From assembly GCF_036347135.1 (NCBI RefSeq), contig NZ_CP108938.1, positions 3,286,001-3,350,000 on the forward strand: a stretch of DNA of 64,000 bases. Reading direction: 5' to 3'. Below the pieces are notes generated by a model. It had not been told where the DNA came from, searched no databases, and was given only the letters and a program-made list of their open reading frames with translations. A program made the translations under genes and the position numbers. The stretch is from Streptomyces sp. NBC_00775 (GTDB taxonomy: Bacteria > Actinomycetota > Actinomycetes > Streptomycetales > Streptomycetaceae). Of the stretch, positions 54,318 to 60,414 are shown in pieces (position 1 is the first letter of the stretch; each line of letters starts with the position of its first letter).

Positions 54318-56729
54318 TTAGGTGGGCGTGGGGGTGCCTGGTGGGGGGTCATTGAGTTCGGCGGCCCGGGCGCGGGCTTCGGTGGCTCGGTCGGGGGCGT
54401 CGGCGCGGGTGAAGGCGTCGGCGGCCCGGAGCCAGTGGGCGCGGGCCTCGGCCGGGCGGCGGGTGTCCTCGTGCGCGAGCGCCAGGTTTACGAGGGCCCG
54501 GCCCGCGTTGTACCAGTCCTCAAAATCCTCCAAGGTCTCCCGGGCCTTGCCGAACGCCTCGATTGCCTCCCCTGTCCAGCCCACCTCATACAGGGCGTTG
54601 CCGAGGTTGATCCAAGCAACGGCCTCCCGGTGGCGGTCCTCCGCGGCCTGGTAGAGGACGCAGGCGCGGGTATGGGCCTCGACCGCCTCCCCCACCCGGC
54701 CCACCTCCCGCAGGACGAGGCCGAGGTTGTTCCACGCGCTGGCCTCGCTGTGGCGGTCCTCGGCGGCCTGGTACAGGTCGCGGGCGCGGGTGTGGGCCTC
54801 GATCGCCTCCCCCACCCGGCCCGCCAACTGCAGGGCGCCGCCTAGGTTGTTCCACGCAATGGCCTCCAGGCGGCGGTCCTCGACGGCCTGGTACAGGTCA
54901 CGGGCGCGGGTGTGGACCTCGATCGCCTCCCCCACCCGGCCCACCTCACGCAGGGCGCTGCCGAGGTGGCTCCACGCGCCAGCCTCGCCGAGCCTGTTCC
55001 CGGCGCGGTGGGTGGCCTGCTGGGCGACACGGGAGATGGTGATCAAGTCGTCGAAGTACCGCCGCCAGTCCAGGTACACCGCCAGGCGCGCGGACAGCCG
55101 CACAGCCACATCCGCATACCGCTCCTCACGCGCCCACTGCACCGCCGCCACCAGTCCCGCCCGCTCCCCGTCCAGCCACGCCAGCGCCCGCCCCCGGTCC
55201 CCGAACCGCTCCGGCTCCGGCATCCCCGGCAGCCACCGCAACCGGTCATCGGCCGCGTCCGCCCACCGGTGGTAGAACTCCAGCACCCGCCCCCGCGCCG
55301 CCTCGCCCTCCCCCCTCAACCTCACATCCCCCGCCACCACACCCGCCCCATACGCCCGCACCAGGTCATGCAACCGCCACCGTCCTCGCCCACTCCCCCG
55401 CTCGACGAGGTGGGCCCGGGCCAGTGCCTTCAGGTCTCGTGCCGGAGGGGCATCGGCCCCGATCAGCGCGGCGACGACCTCGTCGCTGGCCTCCGGCCCC
55501 GGAGCGAGGGCGAGCAGGCGCAGCAGACGGGCCTGACTGGGCGACAGACGGCGGTAGGAGAGGTCGAAGGCGGCGCGGACGCTGCGGTCGCCGTCGTCGA
55601 GGTGGGCGAGACGGTCGTGGGACACGGCGAGTTCGTCGACGAGTTCCGTGACCGGCTTCTCCGGGTCCTCCGCCAGCAGCGCGGCCGCGATCTGCAAGGC
55701 CAACGGCAAGTGTCCGCAGAGGGCCGCGAGTCGCTCGGCCGCTTCGGCGTCATCCGTGACACGACTGTCATCGGGGTCGGCGATCCGCAGGGCGAGGTCG
55801 AGGAGTTCGTACGCGGCCTTGGGCGTGAGCTGGTCCAAGGGGACGAGCCGCGCGCCCAGTTGGGGCAATCGGTCGCGGGACGTGACCAGGACGCGGTGCC
55901 GGGCGTCACCGGGCAGCAGAGGGCGCACCTGGTCCGGCGACGACGCGTTGTCGGCCAGCACCAGCACCGCTCCGTCCTTCCTCGCGCGCTCGGCGAGTAC
56001 CGAGCGGTAGAGAGCCACGCGGTCGTCCACCGTGGCAGGGATGTGTTCCGGCGGGACCCCAAGGGCCCGCAGCAGGGACTGGAGGGCTTGGTCGGCGGTG
56101 ACGGGGTCCTCGTCGTAGCCGTGCAGGTCCACGAAGAGCGTCCCGCCCGGGAACCAGCCCTTCTCACACGCCAGATGGGCACTCTGGACGGCGAGCGCGG
56201 TCTTCCCGATGCCACCGAGTCCGGACACGGCGGCGACGAGCACCGCCGTGGGCTCCGGTGATCCCGTCGACCGGGGTACGGCCGGGTCCAGTGCGCGCAG
56301 CAGCGCGGCCGTCTCGTCGTCCCGGCCGGTGAAGCCGCCGGGCCTGGGCGGAAGGGAGGCCATGGCCTCGGGCGCGGCGGCACCGGTCACCTGGACGTTG
56401 ATCTGTAAGCCGATCACCTCGCGCAGGAACAACCCGCCCCGGAAGTCGGTGTGATCGCCGCAGTACCAGGTGCCGCTGCCCGGCGTGTGCCGCTCCATCG
56501 CTGCCACGACGGCACGGGCCACCGTCCGATCGGCGGCGAGCAGCTCCGCCACCTTGTCGCCCCAGGCCCGCACCGCGTCCTGCCGCGCGGGATGGCACGC
56601 CGCTTCGGCGAGCGCCTGCGCGGACGCGCCCGCGCCCTGTGCTACCGCCCCCGCCAGGTCCTCGACTGCCCGGCGCCCGGCCTCCCCGCCCGCGCCCTCG
56701 GCCAGGGCCGCCAGCAACGCCACGTTCAT
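54318..56729 (-). CDS. NB-ARC/TPR NLR-like STAND ATPase A
   Basis: This roughly 803-residue protein starts at ATG 56729; a GTG at 56777 is possible and neither has a clear ribosome binding site. Residues 1-85 form a helical domain I do not recognise. A short linker follows (YCGDHTDFRGG, then LPPRPGGFTGR). The NB-ARC domain has the P-loop GLGGIGKTAL (170-179), kinase-2 VLVLADNASS, VLVTSRDRL, the GLPL block CGHLPLALQIA and an MHD-like LHDLVRAYG. At least four 40-residue TPR units follow. Leu107/108 of the linker is a TTA codon (56406-56408). It lies 97 bp downstream of a small membrane protein gene. STAND proteins oligomerise on ligand binding; this one probably senses through the TPRs. Confidence 0.9.
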   Translation of the reverse strand: MNVALLAALAEGAGGEAGRRAVEDLAGAVAQGAGASAQALAEAACHPARQDAVRAWGDKVAELLAADRTVARAVVAAMERHTPGSGTWYCGDHTDFRGGLFLREVIGLQINVQVTGAAAPEAMASLPPRPGGFTGRDDETAALLRALDPAVPRSTGSPEPTAVLVAAVSGLGGIGKTALAVQSAHLACEKGWFPGGTLFVDLHGYDEDPVTADQALQSLLRALGVPPEHIPATVDDRVALYRSVLAERARKDGAVLVLADNASSPDQVRPLLPGDARHRVLVTSRDRLPQLGARLVPLDQLTPKAAYELLDLALRIADPDDSRVTDDAEAAERLAALCGHLPLALQIAAALLAEDPEKPVTELVDELAVSHDRLAHLDDGDRSVRAAFDLSYRRLSPSQARLLRLLALAPGPEASDEVVAALIGADAPPARDLKALARAHLVERGSGRGRWRLHDLVRAYGAGVVAGDVRLRGEGEAARGRVLEFYHRWADAADDRLRWLPGMPEPERFGDRGRALAWLDGERAGLVAAVQWAREERYADVAVRLSARLAVYLDWRRYFDDLITISRVAQQATHRAGNRLGEAGAWSHLGSALREVGRVGEAIEVHTRARDLYQAVEDRRLEAIAWNNLGGALQLAGRVGEAIEAHTRARDLYQAAEDRHSEASAWNNLGLVLREVGRVGEAVEAHTRACVLYQAAEDRHREAVAWINLGNALYEVGWTGEAIEAFGKARETLEDFEDWYNAGRALVNLALAHEDTRRPAEARAHWLRAADAFTRADAPDRATEARARAAELNDPPPGTPTPT
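54541..54990. repeat. 120-bp tandem repeats encoding TPR units (ATPase A)
   Basis: The 3' half of the gene has a 120-bp period (for example starts near 54661, 54781 and 54901), each unit encoding 40 residues such as GEAIEAHTRARDLYQAAEDR. Units are similar at the DNA level, so the array can expand or contract in frame. Confidence 0.8.
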
Positions 56730-56826
56730 GTGCCCGTCCCGCCCGTCCCACCGTCCCGGTCCGTACTGCCGACCCACTCGGAGCCGTCAGTGCGTCAACG
56801 GTACGGCGTCAGTGCGGAGTTCGGAC

Positions 56827-57366
56827 CTACCTCGCGTACACCACGACCTGCGCCCCGAGCCCCGCCAACGCCAACGCCTCCACCACCGACAGCCCGACGA
56901 GCAGTCCGCCGCCGTCCCCGCTCGCCCAGAACACCACCAGCGCGGCCAGCGGGACGGCACAGAACGCCGTCAGGTCCACCACGCACTGAATGACCTTCCT
57001 GGGACCGCGCCGCGCGTCGCCACGGTGGGCGGTCTCCCAGCCGAAGGCGGCGAACCCACCGCCGGGATCGGCCAGCGCGGCCAGCTTCGGCCCCAACTCG
57101 CCGCGCACATAGGCCCCGATCGCGGAGATCTTCTCGTCGTTGACGAGGTAGGTCCACCCGAGCACCACGCACACGGGAGGCAGAGCGAGCAGCATGGACG
57201 CCTGCCCGGCCTGGGCAGCGGCGGCGATGACGGCGGCCACGACCCCGAGCGTGACGTACAGCAGGTTGTCGCGAAACCCGATCCGGGCCTTCTGCTCGTC
57301 CTTGACGCTCTGGTACTCGGCGAGCAGCAACTGCCCGACGGTAACGCCCTGTTCTGGCTCCGGCAC
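56827..57366 (-). CDS. Small multi-pass membrane protein next to the NLR-like genes
   Basis: This 179-residue protein starts at GTG 57366, 9 nt after GGGAGG. A soluble N-terminus (LLAEYQSVKDEQKARIGFRD) leads into two hydrophobic segments (LLYVTLGVVAAVIAAAAQAG and MLLALPPVCVVLGWTYLV). A cytoplasmic stretch of about 60 residues follows, then two more membrane segments near the C-terminus. I recognise no family with certainty; the layout recalls small membrane proteins found in conflict systems. It is upstream of ATPase A on the same strand and divergent from the PNP gene. Inferred role: a membrane effector or partner of the adjacent ATPase. Confidence 0.7.
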   Translation of the reverse strand: MPEPEQGVTVGQLLLAEYQSVKDEQKARIGFRDNLLYVTLGVVAAVIAAAAQAGQASMLLALPPVCVVLGWTYLVNDEKISAIGAYVRGELGPKLAALADPGGGFAAFGWETAHRGDARRGPRKVIQCVVDLTAFCAVPLAALVVFWASGDGGGLLVGLSVVEALALAGLGAQVVVYAR

Positions 57367-57419
57367 TGAGTCCCGCCTCCCCCGTACCCAACACCCCACT
57401 CATGGCGGTGACTTGGCAG

Positions 57420-57431: not shown

Positions 57432-58340
57432 GTGACCGTGCCACAGCCCACCGCAGCCATCGCCGTCATCCTCACGGCGCTCCCGGTGGAGTACGACGCC
57501 GTACGCGCCCACCTGACGGATACCGAGGAGCTCGTCCACCCCGACGGGACCCGGGCGGAGCGGGGCAGGCTCGACGGCACGTCCTGGAGTGTCGCGATTG
57601 CCGAGCTGGGCGAGGGGGCCCTGAACACCGCCGCGCTCACCACGCGGATCGTGGACTGGCTCGCCCCGGAGGCTTTGTTCTTCGTCGGGGTGGCGGGCGG
57701 GCTCAAGGACGACATCGAGATCGGTGACGTCGTGGTCGGTACGAAGGTGTACGCCATCCACGGCGGCAAGCAGACCCCGGACGGCTTCCAGGCGCGGCCC
57801 GAGGTCTGGCACGGCTCGCACCGGCTGGTGCAGGCGGCCCGTTCGGCGCTGCGGGACATGCCGGACGTACGAGCGCATCGCAAGCCGATCGCGGTGGGAG
57901 ATGTCGTCCTGGCCGACGACAAGTCGGCGCTCGCCGCGCACATCCGGCACCACTACAACGACGCCTGTGCCATCGAGATGGAGGGCTCAGGCGCCGCCCA
58001 TGCCGCCTATCTGAAGGGCCAGTTGGACACCCTCGTGATCCGGGGCATCAGCGACCGCGCCAACCCCGAGAAGCACAAGGCCGATGCCTCCGGCTCCCAG
58101 GAACTGGCCGCCAAGCAGGCGGCGGCGGTGGCCGTCGCCGTGCTCCGCAAGCACCTGCCGCGCCGCGACTCCGCCGGCGTCCCCGAGCCCCGTGACCCCC
58201 AGGAGGGTCCCCAACGAGGCGATGACGGCGGGGCCACCTACGGCGGCGACCACATCGACTTCCGCGGCGGCACCTTCCACGGGCCTGTCACCGGAAAGTC
58301 GGTCGGGCGACGACGGGACGACGACCACCCGCGAGGGTAA
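57432..58340 (+). CDS. PNP/nucleosidase-domain protein ending in an NLR linker
   Basis: This 302-residue protein (or 312 from ATG 57402) has a PNP_UDP_1 nucleosidase fold: IAVILTALPVEYDAVRAHL, VGVAGGLKDDIEIGDVVVG (near 86), AIEMEGSGAAHAAYLKG (near 180) and VIRGISDRAN with the catalytic Asp (near 205). These match the MTA/SAH nucleosidase-like branch. The last 40 residues are not part of that domain: YGGDHIDFRGGTFHGPV is the same linker that precedes NB-ARC in ATPase A. The frame then ends at TAA 58340, while the continuation (KGTVHGPVPVATTT, LPPRPLGFTGR) is in the +1 frame. It thus looks like the N-terminal effector of a PNP-NB-ARC-TPR protein. Related PNP effectors in antiviral systems cleave ATP or other nucleotides. 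Confidence 0.85.
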   Translation: MTVPQPTAAIAVILTALPVEYDAVRAHLTDTEELVHPDGTRAERGRLDGTSWSVAIAELGEGALNTAALTTRIVDWLAPEALFFVGVAGGLKDDIEIGDVVVGTKVYAIHGGKQTPDGFQARPEVWHGSHRLVQAARSALRDMPDVRAHRKPIAVGDVVLADDKSALAAHIRHHYNDACAIEMEGSGAAHAAYLKGQLDTLVIRGISDRANPEKHKADASGSQELAAKQAAAVAVAVLRKHLPRRDSAGVPEPRDPQEGPQRGDDGGATYGGDHIDFRGGTFHGPVTGKSVGRRRDDDHPRG

Positions 58341-58359
58341 GGGCACCGTCCACGGCCCG

Positions 58360-60414
58360 GTGCCGGTCGCGACCACCACACTCCCACCCCGGCCCCTCGG
58401 ATTCACCGGCCGATCAGCCGAGTTGGGCCGGTTGCTCCCCCATCTCGCGCCCGCCGAGGTCGAGGAGACGGCGCTCCCCCTCCTCATCTTCGCCGTCACC
58501 GGCATGGGCGGCATCGGCAAGACGGCACTCGCGGTCGAGGCGGGCCACCAGGCTCGCACGCAGGGCTGGTTCCCCGGCGGCACGCTGTTCGTAGACCTGC
58601 GCGGTTACGACGACAACCCGGTCACGGCGGACCAGGCGATTCTGGCTCTGCTCGACGCGCTCGGCGTACGAGGTCCGGATCTCCCGCCGACGACGGCACG
58701 CCAGTACGACGCCTACCGCGCCCTCCTCGCCGAGCGGAGGGACCGGATGCTGCTGATCCTGGACAACGCCTCGGCCGCGTCCCAGTTCCTCCCCCTCCTG
58801 CCCGGCACGGACCACCACCGCGTACTGATCACCTCCCGGGACCGCCCGTACGCCCTCCCCGTACGCCTCATCGACCTCGAAGCCCTCACTCCGGACGAGT
58901 CCGCCGCCCTCGTGACCCGCGCCTTGCACGACGCCGACGAACGCGACGACCGCCCGACCCGCGAACCGGCCGCTCTCCGCCAACTGACCGACCTGTGCGG
59001 CCACTTGCCCCTCGCACTCCAGATCGCCGCGGCGATGCTCCGCCGGCGCCGCCACCGTGACATCGCCTCACTGCTGAGCGAGATCGCGGAGACCGGGGAC
59101 GCCACGACCGTCCTCGACAACGGCAGCCCGGGCACGGACCTGTACGGCCGCTCACTGGCCTTACGGCCTGTGCTGGAGACCTCGTACCGCCGACTGCCGC
59201 CGGACCAGGCACGGCTGCTGCGGCTGCTTGCCCTCGCGCCCGGGGCGGAGACCGGAACGGAAGCCGTCGCAGCCCTGGCCGACCTCGACGCGCGGGCCGC
59301 CCTGTCCCTGCTGGAGGATCTCGCCGCTACCCACCTGGTTACACCGGTGTGCAGTGGGGAGGGCTCGGATTCCGCTGTGCGGTGGCGGTTGCATGACCTT
59401 GTGCGGGCCTATGGGGCGGGTGTGGTGGCGGGGGATGTGAGGTTGAAGGGGGAGGGGGAGGCGGCGCGGGAGCGGGTGTTGGAGTTCTACTTCCTGTGGG
59501 CGGTTGCGGCCGATGGCCGGTTGCGGTGGCTGCCGGGGATGCCGGAGCCAGAGCGGTTCGGCGATCGGGGGCGGGCGCTGGCGTGGCTTGACGGGGAGTG
59601 GGCGGGGCTGGTTGCGGCGGCGCAGTGGGCGCGGGAGGAGCGGTACGCGGCTACGGCGGTGCGGCTGTCCGCGTACCTGGCGGAGTACCTGAACTGGCGG
59701 CGGTACTTCGACGACAAGATCACGATCTCCCGTGTCGCCCAGCAGGCCACTCACCGTGCTGGGGACGGACTCGGCGAGGCCGGTGCGTGGATCAGCCTCG
59801 GCAACGCCCTGCGGGAGGCGGGCCGGACAGAGGAGGCGATCGAGGCCCACACCCGCGCCCGCGACCTGTCCCAGGCCGCCGAGGACCGCCAGCGGGAGGC
59901 CATCGCGTGGACCGGCCTCGGCCTGAACCTGCGGGAGGCGGGCCGGACGGAGGAGCCGATCGAGGCCCACACCCGCGCCCGCGACCTCTACCAGGCCGCC
60001 GAGGACCGCCACCGCGAGGCCGGCGCGTGGAACAACCTCGGCATCACCCTGTGGGAGGTGGGCCGGACGGAGGAGGCGATCGAGGCCCACACCCGCGCCC
60101 GCGACCTCTACCAGGCCGCCGAGGACCGCCACCGCGAGGCCGGCGCGTGGAACAACCTCGGCAACGCCCTGCAGGAGGCGGGTCGGACAGGGGAGGCAAT
60201 CGAGGCGTACGGCAAGGCCCTGGAGACCTACGAGGAATTTGAGGACTGGTACAACGCGGGCCAGGTCCTCGAAAACCTGGCCATCGCCGACGAGACCGCC
60301 CAACGCCGGGCCGAGGCCCGCACACACTGGCTTCAGGCCGCCGACACCTTCACCCGCGCCGACGCCCCCGACCGAGCCACCCAAGCCAGCACCCAGGCCG
60401 AGCGCCTGACATAG
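58360..60414 (+). CDS. NB-ARC/TPR NLR-like STAND ATPase B
   Basis: From GTG 58360 this is 684 residues; the open frame reaches back past ATG 58222 within the PNP gene. No ribosome binding site supports either start. NB-ARC motifs are GMGGIGKTAL (near 48), LLILDNASAA, RVLITSRDR, CGHLPLALQIA and the MHD-like LHDLVRAYG (near 343). Four or more 40-residue TPR units follow (59821-60300). Leu in SLALRPVLE is TTA (59161-59163). The codons upstream of the GTG (EGKGTVHGPV) continue the linker begun in the PNP ORF, so the two ORFs are probably one protein interrupted at about 58308. Its C-terminal half is nearly identical to ATPase A at the DNA level. Confidence 0.85.
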   Translation: MPVATTTLPPRPLGFTGRSAELGRLLPHLAPAEVEETALPLLIFAVTGMGGIGKTALAVEAGHQARTQGWFPGGTLFVDLRGYDDNPVTADQAILALLDALGVRGPDLPPTTARQYDAYRALLAERRDRMLLILDNASAASQFLPLLPGTDHHRVLITSRDRPYALPVRLIDLEALTPDESAALVTRALHDADERDDRPTREPAALRQLTDLCGHLPLALQIAAAMLRRRRHRDIASLLSEIAETGDATTVLDNGSPGTDLYGRSLALRPVLETSYRRLPPDQARLLRLLALAPGAETGTEAVAALADLDARAALSLLEDLAATHLVTPVCSGEGSDSAVRWRLHDLVRAYGAGVVAGDVRLKGEGEAARERVLEFYFLWAVAADGRLRWLPGMPEPERFGDRGRALAWLDGEWAGLVAAAQWAREERYAATAVRLSAYLAEYLNWRRYFDDKITISRVAQQATHRAGDGLGEAGAWISLGNALREAGRTEEAIEAHTRARDLSQAAEDRQREAIAWTGLGLNLREAGRTEEPIEAHTRARDLYQAAEDRHREAGAWNNLGITLWEVGRTEEAIEAHTRARDLYQAAEDRHREAGAWNNLGNALQEAGRTGEAIEAYGKALETYEEFEDWYNAGQVLENLAIADETAQRRAEARTHWLQAADTFTRADAPDRATQASTQAERLT
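59821..60300. repeat. 120-bp tandem repeats encoding TPR units (ATPase B)
   Basis: Four units start at 59821, 59941, 60061 and 60181. Units two and three share long identical DNA stretches (for example 59998-60042 and 60118-60162). Each unit encodes a 40-residue TPR such as GRTEEAIEAHTRARDLYQ. The period keeps the frame. Confidence 0.9.

Follow-up and report, generated by a model that had tools for sequence, protein, structure and literature searches.

The 64,000 nucleotides (nt) of the Streptomyces sp. NBC_00775 genome that were analyzed here (contig NZ_CP108938.1, positions 3,286,001 to 3,350,000; the window) contain an open reading frame (ORF) for a PNP/nucleosidase-like protein that is overlapped, in its +1 frame, by an ORF for NB-ARC and TPR domains ending at 60414. 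Our comparisons lead us to conclude that programmed +1 frameshifting very probably makes two proteins from this one gene, a PNP with a C-terminal tail motif and a PNP-linker-NB-ARC-TPR protein, and recoding is strongly supported by the comparison of related loci. The best reading of the sequence is that the unshifted product would be a PNP/nucleosidase-like protein with the C-terminal tail YGGDHIDFRGGTFHGPVTGK, whereas the shifted product would be NLR-like and without the tail motif.

Two samples of relatives were compared. The first came from a PNP search of 295 genomes of the genus, which gave matches in 66 and from which 30 loci were taken; the second came from a profile search of the contigs of named genomes with an alignment of 17 PNPs, and comprises the best 80 of 371 relatives. 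An NB-ARC homolog lies downstream of PNP in 65 of these best 80, and for 62 of the 65 the frame is +1, just as the ORF positions in the window confirm for the locus itself. The three others have the NB-ARC match in +2 (L052, with an ORF of 54 residues), in frame 0 (L090, 156 residues) or in a single-ORF fusion (L110). A PNP tail of this type in genomes lacking the NB-ARC gene, which the original prediction had named as evidence against a joined protein, was encountered in part, in that no NB-ARC match lies downstream in 15 of the 80 loci; among those 15, the contig of L089 ends soon after PNP and L099 continues as one long ORF. A downstream match was found in 18 of the 30 loci of the first sample, 17 of them of the close +1 type, and was absent from 12, three of which (L008, L015 and L023) have a remnant of the HGPVP linker in +1. 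In the eighteenth locus, L027, the NB-ARC domain is encoded separately, by a gene that has an ATG of its own. That gene has a GDHxDF motif as well; in the PNP gene beside it, CCG stands in place of the CCC of other loci, and the +1 frame has two stops ahead of the PNP stop. An order-wide search of 391 genomes gave weak PNP matches in three genomes outside the genus.

Pooling the samples yielded 79 close +1 junctions, or 70 once nine with identical sequence had been removed. These 70 were selected for a +1 match near the PNP stop, the unselected figure being the 62 of 65 above, and all share one frame across 25 different distances between site and NB-ARC, which imply 46 or more changes when placed on a quickly built tree of PNP domains. 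Throughout, our statistics count related loci as independent unless the PNP tree is named, and codon backgrounds were drawn from the same loci. Judged from these sequences, the +1 relation is not a product of chance and the frame is under selection. The few loci with an NB-ARC ORF in another frame or shortened (L052, L090, L072, L081, L096 and L107) are what a pseudogene or a sequencing error would leave, but the chance of either is negligible, with one frame common to 70 junctions, PNP identities of 53–96% and purifying selection on both sides. The original prediction had offered breakage by mutation or programmed frameshifting as alternatives; because the arrangement is conserved in many species the former is refuted, and the latter stands.

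When the PNP tails were lined up, a near-invariant GAG-GAG-GGN-CCC-CAW was seen about 100 nt upstream of the PNP stop region. The original prediction had given C58308 as an example of the skipped base; that position is not supported and lies about 100 nt downstream of the CCC_C proposed here. All 70 junctions have the pattern (A/G)GGAG(G), 2 nt, then CCC or CCT, followed in 69 by C or T. The Shine-Dalgarno-like element, which ends 2 nt before CCC, includes GGAG in all 70 junctions and GGAGG in 64. Its proline codon is CCC in 63 and CCT in seven, and never CCG or CCA, against a background in the same genes of 53% CCG, 35% CCC, 7% CCT and 5% CCA; the base after it is C in 56 junctions, T in 13 and A in one. 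All 70 junctions use a minority synonym (shares 0.21 to 0.003) for the next 0-frame codon, across six different residues (CAT 32, CAA 21, TTT 12, CTT 2, and TTA, AAA and CGA once each). The PNP tree requires a minimum of 16 changes of the residue encoded here, so the minority choice recurs. The +1 codon after the site is ATC in 24 junctions, TTC in 14, AAG in 13, AAC in six and ATG in three, with others making up the rest; in gene-like ORFs of the window, CAA and AAC represent 9.3% and 94.6% of their respective synonyms. Shine-Dalgarno-like affinity is modest at the PNP stop, and the strongest offsets from it, at about -115 and -95, correspond to the site.

A test on new loci covered 21 additional PNP genes that were not identical to earlier ones, and relied on the same motif-anchored search that had defined the site; the regions of the three non-genus genomes (L170–L172) fell below its 50% identity limit. 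All seven new split genes with a +1 NB-ARC have the site, the minority codon and no +1 stop, with an NB ORF of 408 codons in L178 and a short available stretch in L132, L136 and L144. The site was found in none of seven new single-ORF genes, and a direct scan of eight single-ORF fusions for GGAGG/CCY likewise found it in none. Six new split genes have no NB-ARC match, and of these two keep part of the site (L148 with CCC CGG, L180 with CCC CGA) and four are without it. The remaining new locus, L182, has its NB-ARC match in +2 and CCT CAG at the site.

The region between the site and the PNP stop provides a second line of evidence. This stretch (72–129 nt) has a +1 stop in none of the 70 junctions, whereas equal windows upstream of the site have one in 29 and 55 of the 70 (p 9e-11 and 4e-25). 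In addition, valine and leucine codons before A are NTG in 0 of 50 cases inside the stretch versus 301 of 541 upstream (p 2e-17). The openness of the +1 frame and the avoidance of NTG together indicate that the stretch is translated in +1 and, consequently, that the shift occurs at or before CCC_C; in the tightest loci the closest upstream +1 stop is 50 nt before CCC_C. Over the 45 nt before the PNP stop, the synonymous fraction is 0.53 in the PNP frame versus 0.18 in +1 (close pairs among 31 equal-spacing loci), and over the 60 nt after it, 0.65 in +1 versus 0.07 in the PNP frame in the 31 loci. Coding constraint thus passes from the PNP frame to the +1 frame, with direction and site both conserved, as is expected in general of programmed frameshifting.

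This evidence also bears on a frameshift or reinitiation at the PNP stop itself (often CGG_UAG), an explanation that we favored first, on the TAG/TAA bias and its context, and dropped after the tests of +1 openness and codon choice. Where the NB-ARC is intact or cut by a contig end the PNP stop is TAG in 47 loci, TAA in nine and TGA in two, while TGA ends 181 of 233 control ORFs in the same loci and nine of 19 PNP genes whose NB-ARC is absent or broken, and GG directly precedes the PNP stop in most loci. However, the +1 frame is open all the way from CCC_C, the avoidance of NTG before A matters only if the stretch is translated in +1, and CGG would, on base-pairing grounds, re-pair poorly on GGU. 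The bias itself may follow from the +1 residue that lies over the stop (Arg/Lys/Ser instead of Glu/Asp). We therefore regard a shift at the stop as very improbable.

The NB-ARC ORF had been described as having no convincing start of its own, and this was confirmed. No canonical start (ATG, GTG or TTG) for an intact NB-ARC exists up to Walker A in 14 of the 70 junctions, and 26 junctions lack one in the +1 stretch that runs from the preceding +1 stop to the PNP stop. In the 14 loci without a start up to Walker A, the synonymous fraction over the 84 nt that begin at HGPVP is 0.71 in +1 versus 0.05 in the PNP frame (91 pairs). Two genes that are always separate, each with its own ribosome binding site, would have contradicted the original prediction; the 14 junctions do not fit such an arrangement, and L027 is the exception that does. 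Among the best 120 of 1839 database matches (homologs P0001–P0120), 38 begin inside the Walker A motif, a recurrent mis-annotation of the NB-ARC half.

Several observations weigh against programmed frameshifting at CCC_C, and some of them favor overlapping genes, with the NB-ARC starting inside the PNP gene and AGGAGG as the ribosome binding site for a start 6 nt downstream or later. The element lies 6 nt before the first +1 codon, which is a good spacing for a ribosome binding site, and so could serve initiation there. That codon is ATG in three of the 70 loci, some canonical start is present between the site and Walker A in 48 of 70, and the window has +1-frame ATG and GTG codons at 58222 and 58360, respectively. 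The site pattern has 12 matches across the host genome, one being the site itself, and the reversed pattern has 6; in nine of the 12 an ATG follows at the same spacing, and these look like ordinary ribosome binding sites. Nevertheless, we judge initiation within the PNP gene to be improbable. The codon 6 nt downstream is not ATG in 67 of 70 junctions (ten have codons other than the ATC, TTC, AAG and AAC counted above), the 14 start-less loci have no canonical codon for it to begin at, and codon differences in the overlap are mostly non-synonymous in +1. Moreover, it leaves the use of CCC or CCT without CCG, the following pyrimidine and the minority A-site codon unexplained.

Other observations on the same side do not point to a particular alternative. 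The NB-ARC ORF breaks off early in four of the 70 junctions (L072, L081, L096 and L107). Nineteen named split loci lack an intact +1 NB-ARC. Seven of them have no recognizable site and three have another next codon (TCT in L052, CAC in L088 and GGG in L106), but nine retain the site, one of them (L089) at a contig edge, so the site decays together with the NB-ARC only in part; a +1 stop lies within the site-to-stop stretch in L062, L079 and L088. A stimulatory RNA structure near the stop was not found in 60-nt windows from -60 to +160 (mean z -0.20 to 0.36 against mononucleotide shuffles), and the window from -160 to -100, covering part of the site region, had a mean z of -0.55, for which we claim no structure. 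Lastly, a prfB-type +1 site was shifted at about 6% in Mycobacterium smegmatis, as described in PMC12421855.

The PNP domain resembles MTA/SAH nucleosidases (MTANs) in sequence and in predicted structure. Its relatives in the PDB are MTANs by sequence, and its AlphaFold model matches MTANs with TMt of 0.76–0.85 among the 50 matches listed; the mean predicted local distance difference test score (pLDDT) of the model is 71.5, and the tail, residues 246–302, is under 50. Residues E20, E182-M183-E184 and S207-D208 are invariant in 17 of 17 PNPs and align with MTANs, the E20 column being just outside the strongest part of that alignment. We presume these residues to be catalytic, as their counterparts are in MTANs. 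The model and the alignment thus point to an MTA/SAH nucleosidase-like fold with the Glu/Asp positions in place. A PADLOC effector model (PN-superfamily) also matches the PNP (E 3.4e-19), and this match, together with the logic of NLRs, suggests a candidate role in defense.

In the shifted product, the +1 linker would contribute 29–56 residues rich in T, S, G, A and P, followed by HGPVP and the NB-ARC-TPR part. The PNP-NB-ARC-TPR architecture that had been claimed is supported by Pfam and by natural single-ORF relatives, in which effector, NB-ARC and repeats are in one polypeptide; the window locus would need the shift to produce the same. Three such relatives (P0005, P0017 and P0089) join PNP to HGPVP (or HVPVP) with the tail absent, and in P0017 the sequence ...SDSEEAPPQ runs straight into VHGPVP. 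Four genomes have a fused copy 8–9 kb from a split copy (L149–L152). In another locus, L028, the PNP runs on in one ORF into a continuation that we take to resemble WD40 repeats. The features of the window locus are listed in Table 1.

Table 1. Features of the PNP/NB-ARC locus and its neighbors (positions in the window).
Feature	Position	Strand	Basis
PNP/MTA-nucleosidase-like ORF, 0 frame (PNP domain, linker, C-terminal GDHxDF motif, stop TAA)	57432..58340	+	ORF translation, Pfam
PNP_UDP_1 domain, residues 12-239	57465..58148	+	Pfam E 3.7e-34
Shine-Dalgarno-like AGGAGG, 2 nt 5' of the slippery Pro codon	58201..58206	+	Comparison of 70 junctions
Slippery CCC_C, proposed +1 shift site	58209..58212	+	Codon comparison, 70 junctions
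0-frame codon after the proposed slip, CAA (minority Gln codon)	58212..58214	+	Codon comparison
+1 codon AAC	58213-58215	+	
+1-frame linker (T/S/G/A/P-rich), would stand in for the tail motif in the shifted product	58213..58350	+	+1 openness, 70 junctions
0-frame tail motif YGGDHIDFRGGTFHGPVTGK, predicted for the unshifted product only	58239..58298	+	Kept in PNP frame; same motif in sister NLR
Stop codon of the unshifted product	58338..58340	+	
NB-ARC-TPR part, +1 frame, from HGPVP	58351..60414	+	Pfam; +1-frame purifying selection 3' of the PNP stop
NB-ARC domain	58486-59049	+	Pfam E 5.6e-11
TPRs	about 59785-60237	+	Pfam TPR_12 E 4.9e-35
Divergent sister NLR-like gene: N-terminal region, GDHTDFRGG motif (about 56400-56459), NB-ARC, TPR	54318..56777	-	Pfam, motif
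190-residue ORF between sister NLR and PNP	56827..57399	-	Homolog at the same place in other loci

An in-frame ATG is also present at 57402, upstream of the PNP ORF. The TPR units read as near-identical DNA, suggesting recent repeat turnover. In the host genome (G000; 11.1 Mb, single contig), 17 NB-ARC matches reach E <= 0.001, and 14 of these are over the cut-off.

The tail of the unshifted product probably serves a separate function that involves the sister NLR. A divergent sister NB-ARC gene is upstream in 45 of the 72 loci with enough flank. In the window it has YCGDHTDFRGG before its own NB-ARC, as had been claimed for this ATPase, and GDHxDFRGG is thus common to the PNP tail and the sister's N-terminal region. 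A pattern search found a GDHxDF-type motif in 29 of the 45 sister genes and none in 16. An xFxAK ending of the PNP tail tends to be accompanied by one in the sister (5/6 vs 0/23, p 5e-5, assessed by eye with relatedness not removed). In L156 (2034-5207), PNP is in one ORF with a protein 70% identical to residues 38–812 of the sister, motif included, which ties PNP to the sister NLR and may explain why an unshifted tail is kept where the NB-ARC has been lost. L110 likewise has a PNP and a sister-type NLR in a single ORF, the identity having been measured on L156. The ORF of 190 residues between the two genes has a homolog at the same place in 55 of the 72 loci and matches no Pfam family; by eye, its hydrophobic stretches suggest a putative membrane protein, and it could be a third component.

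It is known that +1 shifting is favored by close Shine-Dalgarno spacing, by a tRNA-Pro that slips readily on CCC_C and by an A-site codon that is read slowly where the +1 codon is read fast, and that m1G37 on tRNA-Pro protects proline codons from slipping into +1. Slippage of tRNA-Pro into +1 is the subject of PMC7577736 and PMC8324841. In the mechanism we propose, a ribosome translating PNP would reach CCC (58209-58211), which lies two bases after AGGAGG, while its A site holds a slowly decoded minority codon. Some ribosomes would slip +1, from CCC to CCC on CCCC, and then take the common +1 codon. Unshifted ribosomes would go on to TAA and release PNP with its GDHxDFRGG tail, perhaps to be recruited by the sister NLR as in amyloid-type effector/NLR pairs. 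Shifted ribosomes would make an NLR-like receptor that carries its own PNP effector and is without the motif. On activation, the PNP may cleave a purine nucleoside or nucleotide and so stop the cell.

To our knowledge, few bacterial chromosomal genes outside mobile elements have a conserved programmed frameshift, and prfB is the best known of them. The site resembles that of prfB in its Shine-Dalgarno-like hexamer a few nt upstream, a P-site codon that can re-pair one base on, a slow A-site codon and the +1 direction. However, prfB has AGGGGG, 3 nt and CUU_U with a stop codon, whereas the window locus has AGGAGG, 2 nt and CCC_C with a minority sense codon. The hexamer-like element at 2 rather than 3 nt and the re-pairing codon recur across the 70 junctions, and the A site holds one of the seven sense codons listed above in place of a stop. 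The prfB shift itself is reported as absent in Actinomycetota (2,658 genomes; PMC12421855). The locus is also like the clusters of Antonov et al. 2013 (PMC3711429), in which two annotated genes are joined by a frameshift and single-ORF fusions exist elsewhere, but the four families confirmed there above 10% are other genes, magnesium chelatase uses a -1 shift on A-runs, and NB-ARC is not a term in the main text of that paper.

As an effector, the PNP may be compared with those of antiphage systems, which include ATP nucleosidases such as Detocs; the likeness is the PN-superfamily model match, and the window locus differs by its NB-ARC-TPR partner and its proposed recoding. The sharing of a motif has two parallels. 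In fungal PNP_UDP effectors (PUASM), a short C-terminal motif of the effector is repeated at the NLR N-terminus, but these are separate genes with NACHT or NACHT-WD40 and the motif FxGxGxQxxGxGxF, and PMC9815663 as available mentions no frameshift. BASS systems of filamentous bacteria have adjacent or overlapping genes and one short motif at the effector C-terminus and the NLR N-terminus, as GDHxDFRGG is here; the window effector is a PNP and that of BASS mainly Bell, and the likeness is one of motif sharing (as described in PMC7889193, PMC8086366 and PMC12261475). Our search of the open-license PMC literature found nothing on programmed frameshifting in Streptomyces NB-ARC genes or in antiphage defense; a paper on ribosome profiling during phage infection, which came up for the latter, deals with another subject.

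With the receptor half often started inside the P-loop and the halves listed as separate genes, annotation hides this family. We also considered that the frameshift itself might be a switch, its rate set by the state of the tRNA (how far the A-site tRNA is charged, or whether tRNA-Pro carries m1G37), an extension that we think unlikely though worth stating. If it were true, infection or translational stress would alter the ratio of free effector to PNP-NLR and arm the cell, and an immune receptor gene would be sensing the decoding machinery in cis. An NLR-like gene with a +1 site conserved across many Streptomyces would illustrate how effector and receptor can come from a single gene.

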